NCBI GenBank assembly: GCA_001769655.1
Contig: MEPC01000029.1
Location: forward strand, 1-64,000
Origin: Bacteroidetes bacterium RIFCSPLOWO2_12_FULL_37_12
GTDB taxonomy: Bacteria > Bacteroidota > Bacteroidia > 2-12-FULL-37-12
DNA length: 64,000 nucleotides
Reading direction: 5' to 3'
Shown: in pieces, positions 1,606 through 59,376 of the stretch
Layout of the letters: each line of letters opens with the position of its first letter
Numbering within the stretch: position 1 is the first letter of the stretch
The notes under the pieces: generated by a model
What the model was told of the DNA's origin: nothing
The model's input: the letters and a program-made list of their open reading frames with translations, nothing else
Databases searched by the model: none
Program-made: the position numbers and the translations under genes

Positions 1606-3261
1606 ATGGCTGAAACTAAAGAATCCTGGGGCTCCCGTGTTGGTTTAATACTTGCCATGGCTGGAAATGCTGTTGGACTTGGAAATTTTTTGCGTTTTCC
1701 GGTTCAGGCAGTACAGAATGGGGGAGGAGCTTTTATCATACCTTATCTCGTTTCCTTCTTGGTAATGGGAATCCCAATGCTATGGATCGAATGGGCTATT
1801 GGAAGATACGGTGGAAAATTCGGTGACCACTCTACCCCTTTTGTGCTGGGTAGAATGGGTAAAGCCAACTTTTGGAAATACTTCGGTGTTTTTGGTATTT
1901 GGACCAACCTGGCAGTGGCATCTTACTATTGTTACCTTGAATCATGGACACTTGCCTATACATGGTTTTCAATTGACGGTACTTTTGTTGGAAAATCTCT
2001 CGAAGATGTGTCTGCCTTTTTCAATTCTTATACCGATTTAGGTACAGGGGGAATCATTAATTTCCCAAAAGTAGCAATCATTTTTTTCCTGATTACCTTA
2101 ATTCTGAATACCTACATACTATCCAGAGGGTTGGATAAGGGGGTAGAACTTGCTTCTAAAATAGGAATGCCACTCTTAATACTCTTTGGCGTATTTTTAG
2201 CCATCAAAGGGGTCACTATGGTAGCCGGTACGGAACCACATTCACCAAAATTTGATGGAAGCGTAGGGCTTGATTTTCTTTGGTCACCCCAATTTGATTC
2301 CTTGAAAAATCCGAAAGTATGGATGGCGGCCGCCGGGCAAATATTTTTCACGTTGTCAGTAGGAATGGGAACTATTCAATGCTATGCCTCTTATGTAAAA
2401 CCGAAACAAGACATAGCCCTGAATGCCATGTCAGCCGGTTGGATGAATGAATTTGTGGAAGTAGTATTGGGAAGTGCAATAGTAATTCCCATCGCAGTAG
2501 GATACATGGGATTGGATTGGGTGAAAGCGAATGCAGGATTTATGATGGGCTTTAAAACGATGCCTTTTCTTTTTCAGCAATGGGGAACGGCACTTTCTGT
2601 ATTGGCAGGTATTTGCTGGTTTGGTTTGTTATTTTTTGCAGGAATTACTTCGTCTCTTGCCATGGGAACACCCTGGATGGGGTTCATTCAGGATGAATTC
2701 AAGTGGAGCCGGAATAAATCAGCTATTTCATTTGGCGTCATTATTTTTGTTCTTGCATTACCTTGTATATTATTTTTTGAAAAAGGGGTCTTTGATGAAT
2801 TTGATTATTGGGCAGGGACTTTTTCATTGGTTGTTTTTGCTCTTGCAGAGGTGATTATTTTTGCATGGGTAAAAAACAACTTGAAACTTGGGTGGGATGA
2901 AATCAATGAGGGTTCCGACATGAAAGTTCCGCACATTTATAAATTCATCATCCGTTTTGTTACTCCAGCTTTTTTGATTTTTGTATTTTTTGGTTCTATG
3001 ATAAATCCTCTTGGAGGGGATTGGTTGGGAGCTTTAAGTAGTTTGTTTTCAGGAAATGGCTGGCCCCTTGACAAAGGGAGCGTCATCAGTCAGATGTTTC
3101 ATTTGCATGTTGCAGACACCCGTTGGTTTATTGATGGAAGAATAACCGATTTGTTTATTACCGATATGTCACGATTCTTACTCATTCTTGTTTTTGCGGG
3201 TATCGGATATCTGGTTTATATTGCAGGAAAGAGGAGGAAGAGAGAGGGGAATTATGTATAG
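1606..3261 (+). CDS. Sodium-dependent transporter of the NSS/SNF family
   Basis: A 551-residue multispanning inner-membrane protein. The N-terminus carries the neurotransmitter:sodium symporter signature (WGSRVGLILAMAGNAVGLGN followed by FLRFP), where TM1 binds sodium and substrate. Family members import amino acids or related solutes with sodium; the substrate cannot be read here. A basic tail (AGKRRKRE) ends the protein. The start lies 2 bases after the PPIase stop, so co-transcription is likely. About 175 bases downstream is a MetS-like micro-subunit gene, which in other NSS systems accompanies methionine/alanine carriers and supports an amino-acid substrate. Confidence 0.93.
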   Translation: MAETKESWGSRVGLILAMAGNAVGLGNFLRFPVQAVQNGGGAFIIPYLVSFLVMGIPMLWIEWAIGRYGGKFGDHSTPFVLGRMGKANFWKYFGVFGIWTNLAVASYYCYLESWTLAYTWFSIDGTFVGKSLEDVSAFFNSYTDLGTGGIINFPKVAIIFFLITLILNTYILSRGLDKGVELASKIGMPLLILFGVFLAIKGVTMVAGTEPHSPKFDGSVGLDFLWSPQFDSLKNPKVWMAAAGQIFFTLSVGMGTIQCYASYVKPKQDIALNAMSAGWMNEFVEVVLGSAIVIPIAVGYMGLDWVKANAGFMMGFKTMPFLFQQWGTALSVLAGICWFGLLFFAGITSSLAMGTPWMGFIQDEFKWSRNKSAISFGVIIFVLALPCILFFEKGVFDEFDYWAGTFSLVVFALAEVIIFAWVKNNLKLGWDEINEGSDMKVPHIYKFIIRFVTPAFLIFVFFGSMINPLGGDWLGALSSLFSGNGWPLDKGSVISQMFHLHVADTRWFIDGRITDLFITDMSRFLLILVFAGIGYLVYIAGKRRKREGNYV

Positions 3262-3346
3262 AAATAGAAAATAGAAGATAGAAAATAGAAGATAGAAGAT
3301 AGAAAATAGAAGATAGAAAATAGAAGATAGAAAATAGAAAATAGAA
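3262..3346 (+). repeat. Tandem heptamer array (AGAAAAT/AGAAGAT)
   Basis: About twelve head-to-tail 7-base units alternating ATAGAAA and ATAGAAG fill the gap just after the transporter stop. The array resumes briefly after the dispersed element at 3351-3401 (3410-3430). Period 7 recurs in other gaps of the window with different unit sequences. Confidence 0.85.
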
Positions 3347-3350
3347 TAAA

Positions 3351-3401
3351 ACCTTCAAGGTTTGGTACGGATTTGAGGCGACAGATAACCTAGAAGGTTT
3401 G
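3351..3401 (+). repeat. Dispersed palindromic element, copy 1
   Basis: The element starts with ACCTTCAAGGTTT, has a core GATTTGAGGCG and ends AACCTAGAAGGTTTG, so the ends are inverted copies. A second copy in the opposite orientation lies at 27085-27136 with the same ends and core. Both copies are followed by AGAAAATAGAAAATAGAAAA heptamers, so the repeated unit may include them. Confidence 0.75.
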
Positions 3402-3436
3402 TATTAGTTTAGAAAATAGAAAATAGAAAAAAACTC

Positions 3437-3547
3437 ATGAGCACCGGAGCATTATTAATGATGGTCATCACCGAAGTAGTAATCACTTTCGTGACTGTCC
3501 GTTTCTTTATTTCTGTTTTAACTGTGAAACCGAAAGAAGGTGAGTAG
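3437..3547 (+). CDS. MetS-like small subunit of the NSS transporter (36 aa)
   Basis: A short gene of 36 codons: it starts MSTGALLMMVITEVVITF, spans the membrane once and ends in the charged tail KPKEGE. Position, size, the MST start and the single hydrophobic helix match the MetS-type small subunit that accompanies NSS-family methionine/alanine importers, known in Corynebacterium and present in other phyla. It probably assembles with the transporter encoded at 1606-3261, from which it is separated by about 175 bases of repeats. Assignment rests on pattern and neighbourhood, not on a database search. Confidence 0.72.
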   Translation: MSTGALLMMVITEVVITFVTVRFFISVLTVKPKEGE

Positions 3548-3633
3548 AGACATTGCATGCAACGTCTCTACATTCTGCTACTGCCGCTGTTAACTGCCAC
3601 TTTTTTGATTTTCTCAAACCTGTTTAAGACCGG

Positions 3634-4569
3634 TTAGCTTGTTGCCCCACGTCCCCATTCATCCATCTCCTCCTTACTCCATAAATCCGGAAAAAAAATC
3701 CTGCGCTGAAAACGCGGCGGTAAATATTTCTGCCAGTTTGTGCCACCGGTGGCGGCTATTACATCCGGGTCATTTTGTAAATACCTGACGGCAGAACGAT
3801 AGTGCACTAAGGGCCAATGTACGTTCACATTCAAATCAAATTGCTTATATTCTTTTTGCAGATTTTCATCTTTTCCATAAATAGATGCTGTTTGCTGAAA
3901 ATAGTTGTTTAAGTTTTTTTCTTTGAATTCGTAAGCGGTCTTTATAAATTGGGTTGAATACTTTTCTTCAAATTGACGCAAAGTAAGTGTTTTCTTACCG
4001 GTTTGAAGTTCCACCGAGCCGGTTTTCCAGTAAATATGTTCATACATTTCCTCGAAGCTCTCTGAATTTTTCAAATTATTTCTCGCGCCGGGTGACACTA
4101 AATTAATGAAATCAGTGGCACAAATTTCAATTAAACGGTATTGAGCCGACTGAAATCCGCTGGCGGGTAATAAAGCCATCCGGAATTTCATAAACTCTTC
4201 TTTATCCATGCCGTCCACCATGATATCAAAGGAACGTATCAGGTTTTCCCAATACCGGTTTATGCGGTGCATGCGGGTAGTCAGAAAATCCGGTTTGTGC
4301 TGTTGGTTGGTTATTTGCTGAATTTCCCACAAAATCAATTTAAAATATAACTCTGTTATCTGGTGATAAATGATGAATACGGTCTCATCGGGATATTTCG
4401 TCCTTGTGTTTTGTAAGGTAAGAAGTGTGTCAATATGAATATAATCCCAATAAGTGAGATAATCGGAATAAAGCAAACCATCGAGGTAGGAAACCATGTC
4501 CTGCCCCATGGATTTATATTTTTCTTCCAGTTGTGAAAGACGGGTTTTTATTTCGGGTGTGGGTTCCAT
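3634..4569 (-). CDS. kynA: Tryptophan 2,3-dioxygenase
   Basis: A 311-residue cytoplasmic heme enzyme that opens the indole ring of L-tryptophan with O2 to N-formylkynurenine, the first step of the kynurenine pathway. Visible family motifs are YLTYWDYIHIDTLLTLQ near the N-terminus, the substrate-pocket segment FIIYHQITELYFKLILWEI, and a C-terminal part with VHYRSAVRYL (likely proximal heme histidine), ATGGTNWQKYL and RRIFFPDLW. The start MEPTPEIKTRL is the first ATG of the frame. It stands alone: no kynurenine-pathway partners are adjacent, and upstream (right) lies repeat-rich DNA. Confidence 0.95.
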   Translation of the reverse strand: MEPTPEIKTRLSQLEEKYKSMGQDMVSYLDGLLYSDYLTYWDYIHIDTLLTLQNTRTKYPDETVFIIYHQITELYFKLILWEIQQITNQQHKPDFLTTRMHRINRYWENLIRSFDIMVDGMDKEEFMKFRMALLPASGFQSAQYRLIEICATDFINLVSPGARNNLKNSESFEEMYEHIYWKTGSVELQTGKKTLTLRQFEEKYSTQFIKTAYEFKEKNLNNYFQQTASIYGKDENLQKEYKQFDLNVNVHWPLVHYRSAVRYLQNDPDVIAATGGTNWQKYLPPRFQRRIFFPDLWSKEEMDEWGRGATS

Positions 4570-4570
4570 T

Positions 4571-4677
4571 TGTTTAGTTATTAGTCATTGGTCATTGTAT
4601 ATTGTTCATTTGTCATTGTTCATTTGTCATTGTAATTAACGCTTAATATCAAACATCAAACATCTAATATCCAATCT
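4571..4677. repeat. Intergenic short tandem repeats upstream of kynA
   Basis: Repeated TTCATTTGTCATTG units (4605-4635) are followed by AATATCAAACATCAAACATC heptamer-type units (4644-4677). No gene is visible here. The heptamers belong to the AACATCC/AACATCA family seen at 11539, 24417 and 57568. Confidence 0.7.
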
Positions 4678-4683
4678 TGTACA

Positions 4684-5232
4684 TCAATTTCCCCTGACAT
4701 TTATCTTATCTGAAATAATCAATGCCTCCGGAAAATCCTTTTTAGCGAGGTTGTATATTTGTTGTGCTTCAATGCGAGTCAGAAAATCACCTATTTTAAC
4801 TTTAAAATAGGGCTGATTATAAAAAAGATAGGTAGTGACATCAGGTATAATTTTAGATGCCAATTTCCGTTTTTCCATTGCTTCCGTTCTGTCACTGCCG
4901 GAAAAAACAAGAACCCTGTACCCTTGTGTCACTTGCTCTTCGTTATTGGGTCTCACTTGAATCAAGCTGTCCACCTCCTTGGAATCATCGTACTGAGTAT
5001 TCAAAGGGGGGGCTTTATATACTGCAACCGATTTGGAAGAATTTTTTGCATCCGGATATTTTTGTCTCAAGCCGGTTATGTCTTCATTGTATCCATAACT
5101 TCCGCCTGTGTTTTTTTTACCGGTTGAGTTGGAAGATGTTTGTGTCTGTGTACCGGCACAGGAAATACAAAAAAGTAGAACGAATAAATAAAGTACTCTG
5201 ATAATCATACTATTAGTAAACAAATGCTTCAT
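4684..5232 (-). CDS. SPOR-domain lipoprotein
   Basis: A 182-residue predicted lipoprotein. The hydrophobic segment IIRVLYLFVLLFCISC ends in a lipobox cysteine (ISC-A), followed by a Ser/Thr/Gly-rich linker. The last 75 residues fit a SPOR fold (QGYRVLVFSGSDRTEAMEKR, PYFKVKIGDFLTRIEAQQIY), which binds denuded glycan strands of peptidoglycan in known proteins. It is therefore probably attached to a periplasmic membrane face and associated with the cell wall. An internal ATG at codon 9 would also give a normal signal. The start lies inside octamer repeats. Confidence 0.82.
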   Translation of the reverse strand: MKHLFTNSMIIRVLYLFVLLFCISCAGTQTQTSSNSTGKKNTGGSYGYNEDITGLRQKYPDAKNSSKSVAVYKAPPLNTQYDDSKEVDSLIQVRPNNEEQVTQGYRVLVFSGSDRTEAMEKRKLASKIIPDVTTYLFYNQPYFKVKIGDFLTRIEAQQIYNLAKKDFPEALIISDKINVRGN

Positions 5233-5315
5233 TGTTATATAGTTTCATTGTTTGGTTGTATTAATATGACTCGTTAACAATGCAACAATGCAACAATGTA
5301 ACAATGCAACAATGA
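5228..5315. repeat. Octamer (ACAATGNA) arrays facing each other
   Basis: TTCATTGTTATATAGTTTCA at 5229 onward is the reverse-strand form of ACAATGAA units, and AACAATGCAACAATGCAACA from 5276 on is the forward form. About 20 bases lie between the two arms. This is the same repeat type that frames the four-helix-bundle cassette at 14149-14590, but here no gene lies between the arms. Confidence 0.7.
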
Positions 5316-5326
5316 AAATACAACTC

Positions 5327-8300
5327 TCAATCAATCAACACACACAAATTATTTTTAAAATCTTCCTCTACCGTCTTAAATTTCACATCTTTTTTTACTT
5401 GACCGTTTTTGTACTGGACGGAAACCCTGTCGTTCCTACCGGCAATTTTTTGAGAACGAACCGGCTCTTGTTTTTGTGGCGTTTCCTGGTTTCCATTGGT
5501 CATTTCAGGACGTTTGAATACCGATTGCGCCTCCTCTTTTGTTGTCCGCAGGTGGTCGGCTCTCCGTCTGGGAATCTGCGCCTCGTGTACTTGCTCTGAA
5601 TCCTGAACTGGAATAAACCCGTGGCATAGAAAACGAAGTGTTGAAAAGTTAACTTGCTCAATCATTCGTTTAAATAACTCAAAGGATTCAAATTTATAAA
5701 TAAGCAATGGGTCTTTTTGTTCGTAAACGGCATTCTGCACTGAAACTTTCAGGTCATCCATTTCCCGGAGATGTTCTTTCCATGAATCATCAATAATAGT
5801 TAGTGTCACTGCTTTTTCAATGGATTTTACCAATTCAAGGCATTTATTATTTATGGCTTTTTTAAGATTAACCACCACAGGAATTTGAACATGCCCGTTG
5901 GAGAATGGAACTAAAACATTCTCAATGGTTGCCCCTCTTGTTTTAAAAATATCAAGAAAAATGGGATATGATTTTTCTGCCATTAATTTATTCTTCCTAT
6001 GGTAAGTAGCCAGCGCTGATTCGTAAAGATTCTGAGTAATTTCATCGGGTTTCATCTCAGAAAGTCCTTTTTTCAATTCGGGTAAATCAACGGAAAGAAT
6101 ACGAATGGTATCCATCTTAAAATTTTCCACGTCATTTTCCGGATGATATTTTCTAACTAATTCCGCACAGGTATCATAAAGAATATTGCAAATATCTAAT
6201 TCAAGGCGGTCACCATACAAAGCGTTTCTTCTCCGTTTATAAACAATTTCACGTTGCGAATTCATTACATCGTCATATTCAAGCAGTCGTTTTCGCATGG
6301 CATAATTATTTTCTTCCACTTTTTTCTGAGCACGTTCAATGGATTTTGTAACCATGCTGTGTTGAATCACTTCTCCTTCTTTCAACCCCATTCTATCCAT
6401 CAGCCGGGCAATTCTGTCTGAACCAAACAAACGCATGAGGTCATCTTCTAAGCAAACAAAAAATTGAGAAGTACCCGGATCCCCCTGCCTGCCCGCACGT
6501 CCCCGCAACTGACGGTCAACTCTCCGTGATTCATGTCGTTCGGTACCCACAATTGCCAGTCCGCCTGCCTGTACAACCTCGGGGGTTAATTTAATATCAG
6601 TGCCACGACCTGCCATGTTTGTGGCAATGGTCACCGTAGATGGTTTTCCGGCATTTGCCACGATATCAGCTTCCTTTTTGTGTAACTTGGCATTTAAAAC
6701 CTGATGCTCTATGTTTTTCATTTTTAACATCCGGCTTAATAACTCAGAAACTTCCACTGAGGTTGTTCCCACCAATACAGGTCTTTTTTCTTTGGTTAAT
6801 TTTACAATTTCATTCACCGCCTCGTTATATTTTTCCCTCTTGGTTTTATAAACAAGGTCTTCCTTGTCGGAGCGAACCATTTTTTTATGGGTAGGAATTA
6901 CCACCACGTCGAGTTTGTAAATGTCCCAGAATTCATTGGCTTCAGTTTCGGCAGTACCGGTCATGCCCGCAAGTTTATGATACATGCGGAAATAATTTTG
7001 TAGGGTGACAGTAGCAAATGTCTGAGTGGCATCTTCCACTTTTACATTTTCTTTCGCTTCTATGGCTTGATGTAACCCATCTGAATAACGGCGACCTTCC
7101 AACACACGTCCCGTCTGTTCATCTACAATTTTTATTTTCCCTTCTACAATAATATATTCAACATCTTTTTCAAATAATGTATATGCTTTTAACAGTTGAT
7201 TGATGGCATGAATCCGCTGAGATTTTTCTGTATAATCCCGCATCAGGATATCTTTCTTTTCAATTTTATCTTCGCTGGAAAAAGAAGGGTTATTCTCAAT
7301 TTCAGCAATTTCAGCGCCTACATCCGGTAAAATAAAAAATTTAGGATCTTCGCCCTGATTGGTGATGAGGTCAACTCCTTTATCAGTTAACTCAATGGTA
7401 TTGTGTTTTTCATCAATAGTAAAAAATAAAGGAGCATCGGCTTCGGGCATCAATTTAGAATTATCCTGCAAATAAGTACTTTCCGATTTTAATAGGATCG
7501 ATTTTATTCCTTTTTCACCCAGAAATTTAATTAGCGCATTGTATTTAGGAAGACCTCTGAACGCTCTGAATAAAGCAGTTCCACCTTCTTTTTCGTTATC
7601 TTTTTCAATGAGTTTTTTTGCCTCGTTGAGAAAATTATTCACCAATTTTTTTTGTGCATCTACTAATTTCTGCACCCGGGGTCTTAGTTCATAAAACTCA
7701 TGTGACTCACCGCGCGGAACCGGTCCGGAAATAATTAAAGGCGTTCTTGCATCATCAATCAGCACAGAGTCCACTTCATCCACCATGGCAAAATGATGTT
7801 TCCGTTGAACCAACTCTTCAGGCGTTCGTGACATGTTGTCGCGTAAATAATCAAACCCGAATTCGTTGTTTGTTCCGTAGGTAATGTCAGCCAGGTAAGC
7901 CGATTTTCTTTCTTCGGTATGCGGTTGATATTTGTCTATGCAATCCACCCGTAACTGATGAAATTCAAAGATAGGTCCGTTCCACTCGGCGTCTCTTTTG
8001 GCTAGATAGTCGTTCACCGTTACAATATGCACGCCTTGTCCTGCAAGAGCATTCAGATAAGCCGGTAGCGTTGCCACTAATGTTTTACCTTCACCGGTTG
8101 CCATTTCAGAGATTTTTCCCTGATGCAAAACTACTCCGCCTATTAATTGCACGTCATAATGAACCATCTCCCAGGTAATTTCAGTACCTCCAGCCGTCCA
8201 ATGATTAAGCCATGTGGCAGTTTCACCCTCTATTACTACATTTTGTTTTTTAATTGAAATTTCTCGGTCCCATAAAGTGGCAGTGACAATTAATTTTTTG

Positions 8301-52181: not shown

Positions 52182-53819
52182 ATGAAATCAATTCCGGTAA
52201 TACTTGCATTTACGTTATATACTGCATTTGCGGCGGCTCAGGTTGATAAAACAAAAACCTATTTTGATAAATCGGGTATTGCAAGTAGTGAGAGCTCCGC
52301 TTACTATTATAGGGAAAAAGCCAAGAAAAAAGATAATTATAAATCGTTTTATGTTCTTGGAAAAACACTTTATTTTGAAGGTAAAATACTAAAAGCAAGT
52401 TATGAAGATGAAAATAAAAATGTTTATGCCGGAACCTGCACATGGTACTATAAGAATGGAAATAAAAAAGCAGTGAGAACATTTACAGAAGAAGGGATTG
52501 AAAATGGCACAACATTTTTATATTATGAAAGCGGGAAAATCTGGAAAGAAATTGAATATGCGGACGGTAAAGCTGTCAAAAACAGCTATAAAGAATATAC
52601 AGAAGACGGTCAGGCAAGCAGAATTTATGAAGAAGAATTTGATAATAATAACAACGATTGGGACCTGTACAAAAGCGATAAAAGTGCGGCACAAATTAAT
52701 GATGGAATGTTATCTATAAGCTCTTTTACCAGTGAGGGTACTTCCAGATACGTGAGCTTCCCGGGGCAACTGCAAGAATTTATTTTAGAAGCAAATATGT
52801 CTATTCAGGATTTGAAAGAAGGAGAACATGCCGGAATTCTCTTTGGATTTAAAGATTGGCAGAACTATAGTTTTTTCTCTATTTCATCAGGATCATTTAA
52901 TATAGGGTCATATTTTGAAGGAGTTAGCTTAATGGAAGTAGAAGGTATGTATTCCAGTGCCGTGAATAATAAAGCATTTAATAATATTAAAATATTAAGT
53001 ATCGGTGGCGAGAATAATATATACTCCATTAATGGCGAAATTCAATACAAAGGGAAAAAAACAAGGAGCTACGGAAGTAAAATTGGTTTCGCAGTAAGCG
53101 GTAAATCGGTTGCCCAAATCAACAAGTTAATATTAAAGGAAATTGACTTAAAAGGACAGGGCTTATCGTCTTCCAATGAGGACATGAGCATAAAATCCAG
53201 TGGTTCCGGTCTTATTTTTTCTGCCTCAGGATATATCATAACGAATCACCACGTAATAGAAAATGCAGATAAAATAATGGTTGATTTACAGCGTGGCGGA
53301 ATTTCTAAAACATACAAGGCAAGTATTATCCAAAAGGATGCGGTAAATGACCTCGCAATTATTAAAATTGAGGATGAGAATTTTACTACTTTATCAAAAC
53401 TGAGGTATGCTTTTTTAGATAAAGGGGGCTTGGATGTAGGGGCAAGTGTATTTACTATCGGCTATCCGTTAGCATTATCCGGAATGGGGAAAGAACCAAA
53501 ATTTACCGATGGAAAAATCAGTTCAAAAACCGGTTATAATAATGCCCTGAACACATATCAAACCTCCATCCCCGTTCAACCGGGAAGTAGCGGAAGTCCG
53601 CTATTTAATAAAAATGGACAATTTATAGGAATAATCAATGCAAAAATTATGGATGCTGATAATGTATCTTATGCCATAAAACTCAATTATATAAAAAATA
53701 TAATTGACTTGTTACCTGATATTCCTGAGCTTCCTAATGACGGTAGCATATCGGAATTATCATTGGAAGAAAAAGTAAAAATTCTATCAGGTTATATTGT
53801 ATTTATTAAAATTAAATGA
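52182..53819 (+). CDS. Secreted trypsin-like serine protease with MORN-like and lectin-like domains
   Basis: A 545-residue precursor with signal MKSIPVILAFTLYTAFAAAQ. Residues 80-145 contain YwqK/MORN-like repeats (GTCTWYYKNGNKKAVRTFTE, GTTFLYYESGKIWKEIEYAD); 155-320 look like a concanavalin-type (DUF1080-like) domain (HAGILFGFKDWQNYSFFSIS); 335-515 are a DegP-like trypsin domain with the triad His357 (ITNHHVIENA), Asp390 (VNDLAIIKI) and Ser470 (VQPGSSGSPLF). No PDZ domain is visible. The order MORN, lectin, protease is unusual. The stop overlaps the next ATG, so translation is coupled. Cleavage target is unknown. Confidence 0.8.
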   Translation: MKSIPVILAFTLYTAFAAAQVDKTKTYFDKSGIASSESSAYYYREKAKKKDNYKSFYVLGKTLYFEGKILKASYEDENKNVYAGTCTWYYKNGNKKAVRTFTEEGIENGTTFLYYESGKIWKEIEYADGKAVKNSYKEYTEDGQASRIYEEEFDNNNNDWDLYKSDKSAAQINDGMLSISSFTSEGTSRYVSFPGQLQEFILEANMSIQDLKEGEHAGILFGFKDWQNYSFFSISSGSFNIGSYFEGVSLMEVEGMYSSAVNNKAFNNIKILSIGGENNIYSINGEIQYKGKKTRSYGSKIGFAVSGKSVAQINKLILKEIDLKGQGLSSSNEDMSIKSSGSGLIFSASGYIITNHHVIENADKIMVDLQRGGISKTYKASIIQKDAVNDLAIIKIEDENFTTLSKLRYAFLDKGGLDVGASVFTIGYPLALSGMGKEPKFTDGKISSKTGYNNALNTYQTSIPVQPGSSGSPLFNKNGQFIGIINAKIMDADNVSYAIKLNYIKNIIDLLPDIPELPNDGSISELSLEEKVKILSGYIVFIKIK

Positions 53820-54649
53820 AGAATATGAAGGCAATTTTTTTATTTTTCTTCTTTTTCTTGACTGGAGCAATTCTGCACGTACATGCCCAAAAAAATAAAG
53901 GGGAGCCCAATGAATTAGATAAGTTATACATTCCAACGCAGAATTCAGTTTTCAATCCAGGTAAAAGTTCAACAAAAAACAGCTCACCAAGTGAAAACAA
54001 TAACGCTATAAAGTTTAACCCCGTGCTACTCACTCGAAGTATTGGCGCCTTATTCTATGAAAAATGGCTCTCTGATGAAATCAGTGTGCAGGGTGGACTC
54101 GGAATTTGTTATAATAAAGATATCATGATGGGTAAGTTGTCAGAGATACAACGGGAATTTAACTTTTCAAGAGACGCAACCTCAAGTTTTAATATTTCGG
54201 ATATTATGCTAAGGGGAGAATTCAGTTCTGGTAGCACACCATTCATTTCTTTTGCTTTTCGTTTTTTCGGGAGTGGCTATTATGATTCTGAGAGTTATTT
54301 TGAATTAAATTTCCGCTACTATTCCAACACGTTAAAAATACCTGATGCCACTGAATCCTATAATAAACGCGTATTGGATTTACCCGAAGTAACGGTGAGG
54401 AATTTTAATTATTTATTAACGTATGGTTACCAGGTTTATACCTCCGGAAAAATCCGTACTTCTCATGATTTTTATTATGGGATTGGCTTAAGAAATACAT
54501 CTTATGATAGTTTTAGGGAAGAAAAAATGACTGTTATGGATGAGTTTGGATATCCAAGAGAAATAGATGTACATAAAAAAACAGGTTCCCGGGAAACGGT
54601 ATTAATGCCCTTTATGATTATTGGATATGCCTTTGGATTTTTATTTTAA
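53816..54649 (+). CDS. Hypothetical outer-membrane beta-barrel-like protein
   Basis: A 277-residue precursor: signal MKAIFLFFFFFLTGAILHVH ending before AQK, a Ser/Asn-rich linker to residue 60, then a barrel-like part with alternating hydrophobic strands and a final strand LMPFMIIGYAFGFLF, ending in Phe as outer-membrane barrels do. Function is unknown. Its ATG overlaps the protease stop (ATGA), suggesting the two proteins act together. The stop lies 22 bases before the left end of the IS1595-type transposon, which has inserted immediately behind it. Confidence 0.7.
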   Translation: MKNMKAIFLFFFFFLTGAILHVHAQKNKGEPNELDKLYIPTQNSVFNPGKSSTKNSSPSENNNAIKFNPVLLTRSIGALFYEKWLSDEISVQGGLGICYNKDIMMGKLSEIQREFNFSRDATSSFNISDIMLRGEFSSGSTPFISFAFRFFGSGYYDSESYFELNFRYYSNTLKIPDATESYNKRVLDLPEVTVRNFNYLLTYGYQVYTSGKIRTSHDFYYGIGLRNTSYDSFREEKMTVMDEFGYPREIDVHKKTGSRETVLMPFMIIGYAFGFLF

Positions 54650-54739
54650 TGTAAAGGTGCCTCTAAAAAAAGGTAACTATATATTTCTTTGCACAATAAG
54701 GCGTGTATGTCTATGAAAATCAAATAGTTGCAATTAAAT

Positions 54740-54862
54740 CTACCATTTGCTTTTTTTCTTTCTATTCTTTGGCTTTGGTGCCGGATTGTCACCTACGGCA
54801 ATTCTTATCACATCTTCAAGTGTTCCGGTAATTTTGAGTGGTTTTTCTTTTTTGTTTTTCAT
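54740..54862 (-). CDS. Small basic passenger protein (40 aa)
   Basis: MKNKKEKPLKITGTLEDVIR continues IAVGDNPAPKPKNRKKKSKW. The ITGTLEDVIRIAV helix between lysine-rich ends resembles very small proteins seen in accessory regions of Bacteroidota; I know no function. The promoter box TATCTTTG (54871-54878, minus) ends only 9 bases before the ATG, so the mRNA has almost no leader. The clear promoter and reading frame make it a likely real gene. Confidence 0.65.
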   Translation of the reverse strand: MKNKKEKPLKITGTLEDVIRIAVGDNPAPKPKNRKKKSKW

Positions 54863-54870
54863 ATTAAAAA

Positions 54871-54878
54871 CAAAGATA
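54871..54878 (-). promoter_or_regulatory. -7 box of the 40-aa gene
   Basis: TATCTTTG on the minus strand, matching TAnnTTTG, 9 bases before the ATG. Confidence 0.55.
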
Positions 54879-55030
54879 TGTCTTTTAAATGAAAAAATTA
54901 ACCGTCTTCCTATCTATGGGACAAATGTTTTCAAAACACAAAAATAACAATTTAATTCAAATATACTTTACCCACACCAATTGTGGATAAGTTTTTTATT
55001 GTTTCTGTTGTTTTTCAAATTCAAACTATT

Positions 55031-55038
55031 TACCTTTG
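55031..55038 (+). promoter_or_regulatory. -7 box of the 134-aa passenger gene
   Basis: TACCTTTG, an ideal box, 24 bases before the ATG at 55063. Confidence 0.6.
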
Positions 55039-55062
55039 TAATCGAAAACAATATAAATCAAA

Positions 55063-55467
55063 ATGAAAAATAAACCAGATGATAATTTCTTAAATACGTT
55101 ATTTGAGAAAAAACAAGAGTTACTACAGCAAGTGACCACCATTGATAATACTATTTTAATGTTTGGTGGGGAGATTAATCCAGAAATAAATGGAAAGAAT
55201 GGAAAAAACATTATAAACATGGATATTCCCAATGAATATGATTTTAATTTAACGTGGGAAGAAAAAACCATGTTTGCACTAAAACATTTAAAAAAAGAAG
55301 CATTGGTAGAAGAAATTGTTAGTTATTTAAAAAAACTTGAACCTGACGAAAAAGAGGACATTTTGTTTAAGAGGGTAAGGGTTGCCGCCTCCAATTTATG
55401 TCATAAACGTGGTTTAATTGAAATAGCTAAAAAAATAGGCAAGAAGGTTGTGTATAGATATAAATAA
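55063..55467 (+). CDS. Passenger protein with C-terminal winged-helix-like region
   Basis: A 134-residue protein I cannot name. Residues 5-30 form a coiled-coil-like helix (FLNTLFEKKQELLQQVTTID). The C-terminal 70 residues (TWEEKTMFALKHLKKEALVE, LFKRVRVAASNLCHKRGLIE, IAKKIGKKVVYRYK) show the helix-helix-wing pattern of a small winged-helix domain, so it may bind nucleic acid, perhaps the element's own ends or RNA. It has its own promoter box and a strong hairpin terminator starting at the stop codon. Confidence 0.72.
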   Translation: MKNKPDDNFLNTLFEKKQELLQQVTTIDNTILMFGGEINPEINGKNGKNIINMDIPNEYDFNLTWEEKTMFALKHLKKEALVEEIVSYLKKLEPDEKEDILFKRVRVAASNLCHKRGLIEIAKKIGKKVVYRYK

Positions 55468-55498
55468 GAAACCGTTACTCTGAATCAGTAACGGTTTC
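55468..55498. terminator. Perfect 12-bp hairpin after the 134-aa gene
   Basis: GAAACCGTTACT, loop CTGAATC, AGTAACGGTTTC. It is weakly T-rich to the right and more T-rich on the minus strand. It can end the gene to its left or a leftward transcript from 55692. Confidence 0.7.
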
Positions 55499-55506
55499 TA
55501 AAATAT

Positions 55507-55577
55507 TGCCTCGTTGAGTGCCAACTCTGCAACGGCTTTCAACCGTTTGTAACAAGGTTCGTAACCTTGCGGGGCAA
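55507..55577 (+). ncRNA. tRNA-like cloverleaf RNA (anticodon position UUC)
   Basis: Folds with tRNA geometry. The acceptor is TGCCTCG/CGGGGCA (7 bp, one G-U), then TT (U8), then D-like arm GAGT/ACTC with loop GCCA. A 3-base linker leads to the anticodon arm AACGG/CCGTT with loop CTTTCAA (U33, UUC, A37), a 5-base variable loop, and T arm CAAGG/CCTTG with loop TTCGTAA joined directly to the acceptor. A73 follows, then CTA instead of CCA. Missing features are G18G19 in the D loop and A58 in the T loop, so it is probably a tRNA-derived or mimicking RNA, not a standard tRNA. The strand is fixed by the T loop and the G-U pair. Confidence 0.5.
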
Positions 55578-55599
55578 CTAATTAAAAGAGGAATAAGAA

Positions 55600-55690
55600 A
55601 ACCTATAAGAAAAAACTAATTGTAGGTTGTGGGGTTGTTTGATGACGTACCATTAACCGAATTAAACGACCCTCTTATCCTTTTTATTTT
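55600..55690 (+). ncRNA. Two further hairpins downstream of the cloverleaf, last one terminator-like
   Basis: AACCTATAA (55600-55608) pairs with TTGTAGGTT (55620-55628), with one G-U pair. GGGTTGTTTGAT (55632-55643) pairs with ATTAAACGACCC (55661-55672) over 12 bp, with two G-U pairs, and is followed by T-rich TCTTATCCTTTTTATTTT. All G-U pairs exist only on the plus strand; on the minus strand they would be A-C mismatches. Together with the cloverleaf this suggests one plus-strand RNA ending near 55690. Confidence 0.45.
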
Positions 55691-55691
55691 A

Positions 55692-55699
55692 CAAAGGTA
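55692..55699 (-). promoter_or_regulatory. Leftward -7 box facing the structured RNA
   Basis: TACCTTTG on the minus strand with a TTG 20 bases upstream. It would drive an antisense transcript through the cloverleaf region to the 55468-55498 hairpin, a possible control of the plus-strand RNA. Confidence 0.4.
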
Positions 55700-55737
55700 A
55701 GCAGTAAATCTGAAATTAACAAGTTTGTATTTACGTT

Positions 55738-55750
55738 GTTTATACAATGT
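55738..55750 (-). promoter_or_regulatory. Candidate RHH operator, site 1
   Basis: The minus strand reads ACATTGTATAAACAA, one of three copies of AC(A/T)TTGTATAAACAA around the ribbon-helix-helix gene. It lies about 50 bases before the -7 box. Confidence 0.5.
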
Positions 55751-55776
55751 GGATAACTTTTTCTTTAAAAATATTT

Positions 55777-55789
55777 GTTTATACAAAGT
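55777..55789 (-). promoter_or_regulatory. Candidate RHH operator, site 2
   Basis: The minus strand reads ACTTTGTATAAACAA. It lies between the TTTG (-33) and TATCTTTG (-7) boxes of the RHH gene, where bound protein would block polymerase. Confidence 0.5.
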
Positions 55790-55797
55790 AATACACG

Positions 55798-55805
55798 TAT
55801 CTTTG
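55798..55805 (+). promoter_or_regulatory. -7 box of the RHH gene
   Basis: TATCTTTG, with TTTG at 55774-55777 as -33 box (20-base spacing), 28 bases before the ATG. Confidence 0.6.
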
Positions 55806-55833
55806 TACCGTACCTGAGGTTAATAACCAAAAA

Positions 55834-55974
55834 ATGAAAAAAGAAACGGTTATCATTATAAGGATTGATAATGAAATGAAAAAAGAAATAAAAAAGTTGG
55901 CTGAAAAAGATAGTCGCACCCTAAGCGATTTTATCAGATTACAATTAAAAAAATTGACCGAAAAAGTCAAATAA
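55834..55974 (+). CDS. Ribbon-helix-helix (CopG/Arc-like) regulator, 46 aa
   Basis: MKKETVIIIRIDNEMKKEIK begins with a short beta strand (TVIIIRID), followed by two helices (EMKKEIKKLAEKDS and LSDFIRLQLKKLTEK), the layout of Arc/MetJ/CopG dimers that insert the strand pair into the major groove. No toxin-like partner is adjacent, so a regulator of the element is more likely than an antitoxin. Three copies of a 13-15-base motif flank the gene: two in its promoter and one just before the transposase start, suggesting self-control and control of transposition. Confidence 0.72.
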   Translation: MKKETVIIIRIDNEMKKEIKKLAEKDSRTLSDFIRLQLKKLTEKVK

Positions 55975-55996
55975 TTTTTTTTGCCCTTAATGTAAT

Positions 55997-56009
55997 ACAT
56001 TGTATAAAC
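55997..56009 (+). promoter_or_regulatory. Candidate RHH operator, site 3 (transposase leader)
   Basis: ACATTGTATAAAC followed by AA, in the 49-base gap between the RHH stop and the transposase ATG. It includes the overlapping near-palindrome AATGTAATACATT (55990-56001). Confidence 0.5.
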
Positions 56010-56023
56010 AAAATAAATTTATT

Positions 56024-56968
56024 ATGAACACACAAACACAATTCACCAACCTTATAGAGTTGCAAAAGCAATTCAGAGATGAGGATACTTGCTGGAAGTA
56101 TTTAGAGAAACTACGTTGGACGGAGACAAAGGGGAACCCCATTTGTCCGTTCTGTTCCTCTAATAAGTTTTATGAACTAAAAAGAAAATTTAATTACCGG
56201 TGTGCCAACAGCGATTGTAGAAAAACCTATAATGTAAAAACAGGAAGTATTTTTGAAAACACCAAAATTCCTTTACGCACTTGGTTTATTGCTATCTATG
56301 TTGAAACCTCACACAAAAAAGGAATTTCCTCTTTACAATTACATAGAGATTTGGGGATTACTCAAAAAACTGCGTGGTTCATTTTGCACAGGGTTCGTGA
56401 AATGCTAAAAAGCAAGGCACCACACATGCTAAACAGCACCGTTGAAATTGATGAGACCTATGTAGGTGGAAAAGAAAGATTCAAACACACAAGACAAAGA
56501 AAAGATTTAAAAGAAGGCAGAGGATGTGTAAATAAAACAATGGTGTTCTCTATACTTGATAGAAACAGCGGGGTGTATTCTCAGGTCGTTAATAATGTTG
56601 ATGGAGAAACGCTAAAGCCGATTATCAGAACAGCGGTAGATAAATCTACGGTTATTGTTACAGATGGTTTTGGGGCGTATCAGGGACTTAATAAAGATTA
56701 TCGGCACGAGGTTGTTAATCATGCCCAAGATGAGTGGGTGTGTGGACAATTCCACACCAACAGCGTAGAGGGATTTTTTGGACTACTTAAAAGAGGTATA
56801 ATAGGAATTTATCATTATGTAAGTCCGAAACACCTGCACAGGTATTGTAATGAGTTTGGGTTTCGCTACAATACACGAACACAAGCAGAGGCAGAAAGGT
56901 TTGATAATGCTTTGTCCCAATGTGATAAGAGATTAAAATATACAGATTTGATTAAGAAAACAGTATGA
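56024..56968 (+). CDS. IS1595-family transposase
   Basis: A 314-residue transposase. An N-terminal zinc ribbon (NPICPFCSSNKFYELKRKFN ... RCANSDCRKTYNVKTGSIFE, CxxC...CxxxxC) is followed by a helical region and the ISXO2-like catalytic core: STVEIDETYVGGKERF (first Asp), STVIVTDGFGAYQGL (second Asp), and HTNSVEGFFGLLKRGIIG (third acidic/polar position and Lys). It cuts at the GGTAAC ends and makes 8-bp duplications. The ATG at 56024 is preferred over an in-frame TTG at 56000, which lies in operator site 3. No separate promoter is visible; it may be read from the RHH promoter. Confidence 0.94.
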   Translation: MNTQTQFTNLIELQKQFRDEDTCWKYLEKLRWTETKGNPICPFCSSNKFYELKRKFNYRCANSDCRKTYNVKTGSIFENTKIPLRTWFIAIYVETSHKKGISSLQLHRDLGITQKTAWFILHRVREMLKSKAPHMLNSTVEIDETYVGGKERFKHTRQRKDLKEGRGCVNKTMVFSILDRNSGVYSQVVNNVDGETLKPIIRTAVDKSTVIVTDGFGAYQGLNKDYRHEVVNHAQDEWVCGQFHTNSVEGFFGLLKRGIIGIYHYVSPKHLHRYCNEFGFRYNTRTQAEAERFDNALSQCDKRLKYTDLIKKTV

Positions 56969-57021
56969 TTTTTTAGCAATAGCTACCTATAACACTGGGA
57001 AATGATTGAAATAAAAATCAT

Positions 57022-57029
57022 TACCTTTG
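57022..57029 (+). promoter_or_regulatory. -7 box of the 87-aa gene (leaderless start)
   Basis: TACCTTTG ends 4 bases before the GTG at 57034, so transcription should start at or next to the start codon. Confidence 0.6.
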
Positions 57030-57033
57030 CATT

Positions 57034-57297
57034 GTGAAAAACAATTCAAAAAATAAACCAATAGTTTTGATTGAATGGAATGATTCTGTATTAGGATTCC
57101 AGGGATGGAAAATAGCAAAAGAAAACATTGAAAACATTACCCGTTTTCTTTCGGTAGGGTTTTTAATTTATAAAGACAAAGAAAAAACCATTCTTTATCC
57201 ACACATTGAAGACACAAAAGAAAATGACATGGTGGGTTCTGGAGATATAACCATTCCCAACTCTGCAATAAAAAAAATAACTATTCTAAAAAAATAA
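57034..57297 (+). CDS. Passenger protein of unknown function, probably leaderless (87 aa)
   Basis: An 87-residue soluble protein read from GTG. The start PIVLIEWNDSVLGFQGW followed by KIAKENIENITRFLSVGFLI and KEKTILYPHIEDTKEND is the look of small beta-rich proteins found in phages and mobile DNA, but I know no function. There is no other good start before the conserved-looking IEWND segment. The promoter box sits so close that the mRNA has no leader, which fits the absent Shine-Dalgarno site. It converges with the 46-aa gene on the other strand with one base between. Confidence 0.65.
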   Translation: MKNNSKNKPIVLIEWNDSVLGFQGWKIAKENIENITRFLSVGFLIYKDKEKTILYPHIEDTKENDMVGSGDITIPNSAIKKITILKK

Positions 57298-57298
57298 A

Positions 57299-57439
57299 TT
57301 ACTTCTTTTTGCTTTTCCCCCTTGATTGTGCTAAATCAGAGGCGGCAACGCTTTTTTCTCTTTTAGTGCTTGTCGGGTCTCTTAAAATTTGAGAAGCCAA
57401 TGAAGCTACTTTTTTTGATGTTTGTTTCGTATTTGACAT
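57299..57439 (-). CDS. Small basic passenger protein (46 aa)
   Basis: MSNTKQTSKKVASLASQILR continues DPTSTKREKSVAASDLAQSR and ends GKSKKK. The pattern KKVASxASxxLRDPxSxKxxKSVAxSxLxQ matches small lysine-rich proteins that I recall from accessory regions of many bacteria; function is not known to me. A TATCTTTG box on the minus strand at 57457-57464 lies 17 bases before the ATG. Confidence 0.68.
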   Translation of the reverse strand: MSNTKQTSKKVASLASQILRDPTSTKREKSVAASDLAQSRGKSKKK

Positions 57440-57456
57440 AACAACTTGTTTTTTTT

Positions 57457-57464
57457 CAAAGATA
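57457..57464 (-). promoter_or_regulatory. -7 box of the 46-aa gene at the right end
   Basis: TATCTTTG on the minus strand, 17 bases before the ATG at 57439. Confidence 0.55.
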
Positions 57465-57567
57465 GTAATTTTTAACTAATTACGTAGATATTTACTTTCT
57501 ATTAGGTTTGTGCAAACAGAGATATAGTTACCTAAAAAAAAATGTACACTTATCTTTAAATATTATA

Positions 57568-57633: not shown

Positions 57634-59376
57634 ATGAAAAAAGTCATTCTTTTAATTGCAATCTGCTCTGTCCTTTTTTTTACTAAAACGACGGCACAGA
57701 AACTTTCTGTTCAATGGTCAGAAAAACAGTTTTATAATTCTAAAAGTGACGGATATTTCAACAGTTATGTTGGAGGAAATTCCAAATTTATATATGCAAA
57801 ATTTACAGAGGTCCATCCTAAGCGTAGGAAATCAGATACTAGAATAAAAATTCTTGGTTTTGATAAAACGACAATGAAAAAACTGGGAGATGTAACATTG
57901 TTGGATGTAAAAAATGAAGAAAGTAAAAATAAATACAAGGACATGTTGTATTTCAGGACTATAGTATTTGAGAACATAGTATATGTATTCTGGACTAAAG
58001 AAACAAAAACTGAGAAAGAATTATATGCGGAAAGTTACACCAACAAACTTAAACCAAACATGAAACTTAAAAAGGTCTACGGGCTAAAATTTGGCGAAAG
58101 AAGAGATAAACAAGGACAATTTATTGTAATGAGCAATAAAAATATCGGTGAACAAATCCTGATTGGCGGAGAGTTGACTGCCAGTATAGATAAAAATGTA
58201 GTCATGGAATATAAACTGCTGAATAGTGACTTTTCCTTTTCGGATGCAAATCAAATTACCTTACCTATTATCATTAAGAGTGTTTGGGGTGGTTTATCTT
58301 CGTCTTATGAACTGGGAGATGATAACAACCTGCATATAAAAACATACGTGACGATGGATAAAGAAGAGGCAAAAGGAGCAAAGAAAGGTGAATCAACTAG
58401 TTACCCGATCTATACGGTGGTTAATCCTAAAACGGGTGCCAAGCAGACCTACAATGTTAAGTTTGAAAACAAGAACATCTTCAACTTTGATTTCATCGTA
58501 GGTAAATCTAACATTAAACTGTTTGGTTTTTTCTGCGATCTTCTTAAAGACCCGAAGGGATATGATAATCATGGAATTTTTTATGGAATGTTAGACAGCA
58601 AAACATTTAAGATGAACAACTTGAAATTTTCTTATTTTAACAAAACCCAATTAGATCAACTATTTGCAAGTGACAAAATGGATAGAAAAGATGAAAAACT
58701 TTTCTCTTCAGCTAAGAAGAAAAAATCAGAAGAGGAATCTGTTCCTTCTGATTACGAAATTGAAGATGTTCATTCCATAAATAATGATTTGGTCCTTTTT
58801 TGTTCGCGAATGAACAATTATACTGTAACAACCAGAACTAAAGATGGAGGTTCTACAACAAGATATTATTGTGAAAAAAGTAACGTAACCACTTTCAGAA
58901 TTAATGCAGAAGGTAGTATTGTTTGGGCTTCTAATATTGATAGATATATGAAGTATGATGAATGGAATGTTTATGATTTGAAAGTTGCTCTTAAGGGCGA
59001 AAACTTTTATATAATGTATGGATCTAACCAAAAAAATGCAAGGGTGAGGAGCAGTTCATACAAAGAAAGCCCACCAAAAACAAAGGACTATTTTGAATAT
59101 GCTGTAATAGACAATAAGACAGGAAATTACTCTGTAAAATACTATTCTCCAAACGCATTAAATACACCCAAAAAAGAAAGAAAAGAAATTTCAGTAGCAG
59201 ATATTCAGGTTGTTGATGATCAGCTATATGTCAATTCTTCAAGGTTACATGCTGAACCGATAATATGGGTTATAGGATGTGCAGGAGCTTTAATATGCCC
59301 CCCACTCATTTTGCTCCCATTTACTTATAGATTTCAAGTGGGTGACGGCTATCTGGGTAAAATAGTGACTGAATAA
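57634..59376 (+). CDS. Hypothetical secreted protein, 580 aa
   Basis: Signal MKKVILLIAICSVLFFTKTT, cleaved after TAQ. The body is beta-rich with lysine-rich loops (FIYAKFTEVHPKRRKSDTRI, NIFNFDFIVGKSNIKLFGFF, LVLFCSRMNNYTVTTRTKDG) and may be a propeller-like fold; there is no T9SS sorting domain. Near the end is a hydrophobic stretch (PIIWVIGCAGALICPPLILL). I do not recognise the family. The ATG at 57634 is used since the frame upstream runs through repeats and the transposon end. A diverged remnant of its last codons occurs at 60270-60329. Confidence 0.68.
   Translation: MKKVILLIAICSVLFFTKTTAQKLSVQWSEKQFYNSKSDGYFNSYVGGNSKFIYAKFTEVHPKRRKSDTRIKILGFDKTTMKKLGDVTLLDVKNEESKNKYKDMLYFRTIVFENIVYVFWTKETKTEKELYAESYTNKLKPNMKLKKVYGLKFGERRDKQGQFIVMSNKNIGEQILIGGELTASIDKNVVMEYKLLNSDFSFSDANQITLPIIIKSVWGGLSSSYELGDDNNLHIKTYVTMDKEEAKGAKKGESTSYPIYTVVNPKTGAKQTYNVKFENKNIFNFDFIVGKSNIKLFGFFCDLLKDPKGYDNHGIFYGMLDSKTFKMNNLKFSYFNKTQLDQLFASDKMDRKDEKLFSSAKKKKSEEESVPSDYEIEDVHSINNDLVLFCSRMNNYTVTTRTKDGGSTTRYYCEKSNVTTFRINAEGSIVWASNIDRYMKYDEWNVYDLKVALKGENFYIMYGSNQKNARVRSSSYKESPPKTKDYFEYAVIDNKTGNYSVKYYSPNALNTPKKERKEISVADIQVVDDQLYVNSSRLHAEPIIWVIGCAGALICPPLILLPFTYRFQVGDGYLGKIVTE

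Follow-up and report, generated by a model that had tools for sequence, protein, structure and literature searches.

The stretch of DNA analysed here, 64,000 nt of contig MEPC01000029.1 (the window, to whose positions all plain coordinates refer), contains a transposon of the IS1595 family in which the transposase is accompanied by five small passenger genes, and the question raised by this locus is whether such genes are simply carried along or serve the element itself. The best overall explanation, to which we give a probability of about 0.6, is that of a complete “transporter IS” (IS, insertion sequence) which would combine a ribbon-helix-helix (RHH) repressor circuit with a short protein tag linked to the transposase. 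The transposon spans 54672-57532 (2,861 bp), with borders exact to the base, as set by the following features:

54664-54671: left copy of the target duplication, TAAAAAAA, 8 bp
54672-54696, plus strand: left terminal inverted repeat, GGTAACTATATATTTCTTTGCACAA, matching the right end at 22 of 25 positions; the same type of end is found around related transposases
56024-56968, plus strand: IS1595-family (ISXO2-like) transposase, 314 amino acids (aa), frame open and intact, zinc ribbon and DDE domains matched
57508-57532, minus strand: right terminal inverted repeat, GGTAACTATATCTCTGTTTGCACAA, 22 of 25 against GGTAACTATATATTTCTTTGCACAA
57533-57540: right copy of the target duplication, TAAAAAAA, 8 bp

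When every pair of identical 8-bp direct repeats spaced 0.7-8 kb apart in the window (20,020 in total) was ranked by the inverted ends that it encloses, this pair came out best (22/25) and the runner-up reached 16/25, which argues that the A-rich duplication is not a chance product of AT-rich DNA. The insertion site is AT-rich and intergenic, lying between the reading frames 53816-54649 and 57634-59376, and the element is present as a single copy in its 3.94-Mb genome. The transposase matched the Pfam models DDE_Tnp_IS1595 (PF12762, 8.6e-42) and Zn_ribbon_IS1595 (PF12760, 5e-10) as well as NCBIfam NF033547 (2.9e-61, 207 bits against a cut-off of 75); its fold is of the RNase-H-type DDE class, the nearest solved structures being the ISCth4 transposase and retroviral integrases. 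With the duplication, the ends and an intact transposase in place, the description in the initial annotation of a complete IS1595-type transposon with base-exact borders is borne out, as is its count of five passenger open reading frames (ORFs) and one structured stretch between the ends. The locus thus holds an IS1595-family transposon that is complete, carries passenger genes and was inserted once; it is a new member of the known class of transporter IS, in which passenger genes are, as the class implies, predicted to be dispensable for transposition. A site without the insertion but with the small genes was seen in none of the genomes searched, which include no close relative; those that have a homologue of the right-flank gene are distant, lack the left-flank gene and hence yield no empty site.

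The setting of this element among its relatives was examined in about 190 loci gathered around related transposases (given below as L numbers, with G numbers for the genomes searched), for 113 of which inverted ends and an exact 8-bp duplication could be set. Ends are conserved around the homologous transposases, being mostly GGTAACTATATAC...TTTACACNAA and variants of these, and 8-bp duplications surround most of the related elements. The 113 elements measure 960-5,946 bp (median, 2,959 bp); the earlier remark on an unusual length is therefore correct in comparison with a bare IS of about 1 kb, but not within this transposase group, where 2.86 kb is a typical, mid-range size and cargo is the norm. 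The closest transposases located share 56-58% identity (L005/L213), and no identical or near-identical element was seen among the collected related loci. The exact gene order of the element, which had been proposed as a search query, was found in no other element, although parts of it recur separately in L213, L230, L040 and L049. The element most similar to that of the window is the one at L213 in genome G058 (2724-6949, ends GGCAACTATATACGAGTTAGACC, duplication CAACCAAA), which also encloses, divergent beside the intact transposase, a 143-aa fragment akin to the N-terminal region of an IS1595 transposase (L213:4025-4456, minus strand).

The first passenger gene for which a role in the element can be proposed lies directly upstream of the transposase gene (tnp), together with a repeated 12-mer:

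55736-55747, plus strand: operator copy 1, TTGTTTATACAA, exact 12-mer
55775-55786, plus strand: operator copy 2, TTGTTTATACAA, reaching into the upstream portion of the rhh promoter
55798: -7 box of rhh, TATCTTTG
55834-55974, plus strand: RHH protein, 46 aa, with a borderline match to RHH_1; proposed autorepressor of rhh and tnp
56000-56011, minus strand: operator copy 3, TTGTTTATACAA, 12 bp ahead of the transposase start

The exact 12-mer occurs four times in the 3.94-Mb genome, and three of these copies fall within 276 bp of the element, two of them at the promoter of rhh and the third ahead of tnp. The same layout was seen in L049, where an RHH gene directly precedes the transposase and an unrelated sequence, TTGTAAGACAAA, stands twice before rhh with a third copy before tnp; since an independent element thus repeats the arrangement with a different operator, control of the transposase by an RHH protein and its operators is well supported. 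It is quite likely, on the strength of these repeats, that the RHH protein binds the three TTGTTTATACAA operators and represses both its own gene and the transposase. Several Arc/CopG PHROGs match the protein at E 1e-4 to 1e-3, and its matches to RelB, CopG and HicB are all under cut-off. As to promoters, the initial annotation had described them as mostly of consensus type, which holds for the Bacteroidota -7 box (TAnnTTTG), found before most genes of the element, but not for sigma-70, the sites of which are not enriched (12 found against 14.6 expected).

The second such gene is the smallest one of the element:

54740-54862, minus strand: p40, a free tag microprotein of 40 aa, LEDVIRIAVGDNPAPK followed by a basic tail, with a -7 box TATCTTTG at 54878 (minus strand)

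No family match for p40 was obtained in Pfam, NCBIfam, PHROGs or PADLOC. Proteins of its type were instead found by a profile search, blind to position, over all ORFs of the related loci (p40 itself, E 4.4e-7), and the left end of the element likewise holds a p40-like gene, on the minus strand, in L213, L042, L070 and L136. Common to these proteins is a tag, frequently extended by a basic tail, with the core F-[DEN]-[DEQK]-x-[LIVM]-K-x-x-[LV]-x-x-x-P-K, in which (n = 95) F occupies position 1 in 81 cases, L/I/M/V position 5 in 88, L/V/I position 9 in 73 and P position 13 in 55; p40 has the spacing F/L-x3-hydrophobic-x3-hydrophobic-x3-P and the basic tail. The motif is not covered by any Pfam or NCBIfam model in the proteins scanned, and no paper was found, in the literature searched, that links IS1595 to KilA-N, P63C, RhuM or the tag motif; this transposase-linked motif family is apparently undescribed, with the proviso that a description may be contained in Siguier et al. 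(2009). A single position-specific matrix for all tags was tried and set aside since it underfits, the motif having sub-types; at a threshold of 10 and in the held-out half, it nevertheless picked 15 of 72 genes following a transposase against 1 of 404 distant ORFs. Five sub-types were profiled, four of them fused to other proteins (C1, C2, N1 and N2) and one free.

The distribution of the tag is what links it to the transposase. Matches to the fused sub-types in the 971 kb of sequence lying no more than 3 kb from a transposase and in the 761 kb beyond that distance numbered 23 and 0 for C1, 10 and 1 for C2, 21 and 0 for N1, and 15 and 0 for N2; the free type, to which that of the window belongs, shows a similar confinement, and rates of tag scores are very low in distant ORFs and in shuffled sequences. 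Where the ends of the element are known, 62 tags lie inside and one outside. Most tagged genes located behind tnp (45 of 64) share 1, 4, 8 or 11 bp with its end, which suggests that they are translationally coupled to it. When the free-tag profile was run on 149 whole genomes, nine of its 11 matches fell within 3 kb of an IS1595 transposase, several of these being rows of the profile itself; in the same genomes and a phylum sample of 395 genomes, nine tag matches outside the profile set were obtained, four of which (G083:C134, G058, G517 and G344:C2) stand beside a cargo-type transposase. One tag microprotein, on a Methylocystis plasmid (L253:9909-10091, plus strand), overlaps the transposase stop by 4 bp and is missing from the gene table of the record, so that some annotation evidently misses tag genes; it is the one strong match among ten more distant plasmid loci, in the 163 kb of which no other strong match occurs elsewhere.

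The tag is also found joined to a variety of proteins, namely P63C, KilA-N, RhuM, Bro-N, D12 and N6/N4 DNA methylases and an HsdS-like domain, to which inspection by eye adds small helix-turn-helix proteins, or no partner at all. With P63C it is C-terminal in L015 and N-terminal in L085, L099 and L103, and with RhuM it is C-terminal in L063 and N-terminal in L164; its presence at opposite termini in different elements indicates that it was joined to each of these domains independently. A tree of 173 transposases requires eight changes of sub-type, compared with a minimum of 45 and a mean of 52 in 200 shuffles, and only three changes occur among the 44 fused forms. Three Streptococcus loci (L083, L084 and L098) carry the C1 tag, as expected for their Bacteroidota-type transposases. 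The sub-type of the tag tracks the transposase tree, not the cargo, across host phyla.

Placement, fusions, the tree test and the overlap with tnp together make cooperation with the transposase the simplest reading, and on these patterns the tag probably works with the transposase in some way. A more specific and tentative proposal is that it docks onto the transposase: the 40-aa protein would carry a short amphipathic helix, F-x3-[LIV]-x3-[LV]-x3-P-K, as the docking surface, the free microprotein would modulate or bridge the transposase, and a tag fused to a DNA-binding or DNA-methylating protein in sister elements would bring that partner to the transposition complex. More tentative still is the generalization to a universal docking tag of about 20 residues, passed between cargo proteins, by which interchangeable partners that bind or modify DNA (methylases, KilA-N, P63C, RhuM, Bro-N, helix-turn-helix proteins or nothing) could be plugged into one transposition machine, p40 then being the bare plug. 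In L036 and L142, where an in-frame tag gene lies behind the stop of the transposase, the two were modelled with AlphaFold as one read-through chain; most of the transposase has a model confidence (pLDDT) above 90 and the tag helix reaches 69 (L036) and 82 (L142), above the surrounding residues, which fits a structured tag helix.

A number of points weigh against this explanation. The RHH protein falls slightly below the Pfam cut-off for RHH_1 (E 5.9e-4, 20.1 bits against 20.5), and p40 deviates from the tag core in having L for F at position 1 and A after the P. Not all of the 107 elements with known ends have a detected tag (63 do), and the sequences used to train the profiles overlap with those on which matches were counted, although the shuffles and the tree test are independent of any hand-picked position. 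The other five of the nine matches outside the profile set, mostly weaker, have no cargo-type IS1595 transposase adjoining, and the ten more distant plasmid loci yielded only the one significant tag, that of Methylocystis, and two more that fit by eye. Finally, the tag helix is only moderately confident in the read-through models, from which a docking contact is not visible.

Other explanations must be considered alongside. The tag could bind a host factor common to many bacteria, e.g., a replication or nucleoid protein, its nearness to the transposase then reflecting a general need of such elements; a short helix with P-K and a basic tail could indeed suit many partners, and a few tag-like microproteins (L215, L216 and L232) have no transposase nearby. 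However, such a tag would be predicted to cluster by host, whereas the sub-type follows the transposase clade across phyla, as in the Streptococcus loci, and we consider a host factor unlikely. The doubt may be taken further by supposing an ordinary transporter IS with incidental small cargo, in which p40 would resemble the tags only by virtue of being basic and of low complexity, and would play no part in transposition. That the 134-, 87- and 46-aa genes have no assignable function would agree with this, as would the noisy profile matches that come from short basic proteins, but the conserved spacing (F 81/95, P13 55/95), the near-exclusive placement in elements, the fusion to unrelated domains at either end and the very low rates in distant ORFs and shuffles render it improbable.

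The third explanation concerns the cargo as a whole, as the initial annotation had assigned it functions for the element itself, among which control, defence and addiction were named. A toxin-antitoxin or defence module stabilising the element would be in line with the frequent use of RHH proteins as antitoxins and with the PIN-domain, ImmA/IrrE-like and restriction genes of other elements in this group, as judged by inspection and from plasmid annotations. Against this, no PADLOC match was obtained at E 0.1, there is no toxin-like partner beside the RHH gene, and the position of the operators, on the promoter of rhh and immediately ahead of the transposase, fits control of the transposase; with no family match the defence or addiction reading was dropped, and we regard it as very improbable. 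Functions for the element itself are upheld for the RHH gene, by its operators, and for the 40-aa gene, by its transposase-linked tag. Docking of the tag onto the transposase, if true, would account for the retention of unrelated DNA-binding and methylase genes in the same operon as the transposase. It would then also provide an easy means by which an IS family might be studied or re-targeted, and a way of telling which “passenger” genes are true parts of the transposition machinery.

The remaining features of the element would be accessory cargo in the case of the three genes and a candidate RNA in the case of the structured stretch:

55063-55467, plus strand: p134, 134 aa, weakly conserved family, coiled coil and winged helix by inspection only, -7 box at 55031
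55467-55690: strongly structured stretch, candidate minus-strand RNA of about 230 nt, -7 box at 55699 (minus strand), terminator-like hairpin 55499-55467
57034-57297, plus strand: p87, 87 aa, GTG start, -7 box at 57022, weak match to phrog_25889 (E 5.4e-4), a family with no assigned function
57299-57439, minus strand: p46, 46 aa, -7 box at 57464 (minus strand), match to phrog_5079 (E 7.9e-15)

Homologues of p134 were found in L230 (E 6e-6), L100 and L040, that of L230 lying within an IS1595 element whose ends match at 26 of 26 positions and preceding both transposase and tag, and that of L040 adjoining a tag gene. The p134 family is thus seen repeatedly in this IS1595 group and could be part of the control circuit; no family was matched in Pfam, NCBIfam or PADLOC, and the comparison with solved structures gave just a doubtful match to FliG (E 0.034). 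Relatives of p134 and p87 were not found in plasmids, nor those of p87 in the 149 genomes. The p46 family is one of phages and plasmids (18 plasmid records from many phyla), and its nearest relatives in other genomes lie away from transposases. The structured stretch folds much better than shuffled sequences on both strands (z -5.05 for 55500-55700, plus; z -3.86 for 55458-55690, minus), the minus strand being favoured for an RNA because of its -7 box and terminator-like hairpin, and it is possibly a minus-strand RNA. Only chance-level matches were returned by Rfam and only short AT-rich ones by the 149 genomes, and no credible relatives were seen in 232 loci, plasmids, phages and viral contigs. 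In L230 a structured stretch (6200-6530, minus strand, z -4.5) likewise lies between the p134 homologue, which it follows directly, and the transposase; an RNA common to both was considered but is recorded only as an observation, as the two are alike in place and branched shape but share neither alignable sequence nor covariation.

Further observations were made on the cargo of related loci. Four IS1595 elements (L052, L060, L144 and L137) carry a 69-aa XRE-like helix-turn-helix gene that touches or overlaps the transposase stop, two of which (L052 and L060) have in addition a tag-like microprotein upstream on the minus strand. The tag-like microproteins at L215:4854-5003, L216:3507-3665 and L232:434-646, with no IS1595 transposase in the neighbourhood examined, may belong to other elements or relics. 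Large genes of 980 and 919 aa, restriction-modification/methylase-like, lie on the strand opposite to the transposase in L136:2917-5859 and L120:3115-5874, and a common order of IS1595 transposase, hypothetical, PIN/VapC-type toxin and small hypothetical genes was noted on a Methylobacterium plasmid (L255:757-3310) and a Roseomonas plasmid (L256:8977-11456).

The transporter IS (tIS) class of the IS1595 family goes back to Siguier et al. (2009), as cited in PMC3129680 and PMC5704250, the latter of which names MTnSag1/tISSag10 and tISCpe8 as mobilizable or lincomycin-resistance elements. The element of the window has in common with these an IS1595 DDE transposase, inverted ends, an 8-bp duplication and passengers unrelated to transposition; however, it lacks a resistance gene and has, besides a probable repressor and its operators, a transposase-linked tag gene. 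Within the family it agrees with the ISXO2-like group, its transposase matching both PF12762 and NF033547 over the full length and its ends being of the GGTAACTATATAC type.

Tethering of a recombinase by a bound peptide or domain has precedents in the integrase-binding domain (IBD) of LEDGF with retroviral integrase, in MuB and in TniQ/TnsD. The tag differs from these in its length of about 20 residues, in being encoded by the element and shuffled among unrelated cargo, and in that its contact is only proposed, whilst the likeness would lie in the logic of a module which holds on to the recombinase and recruits a DNA-binding partner to it.

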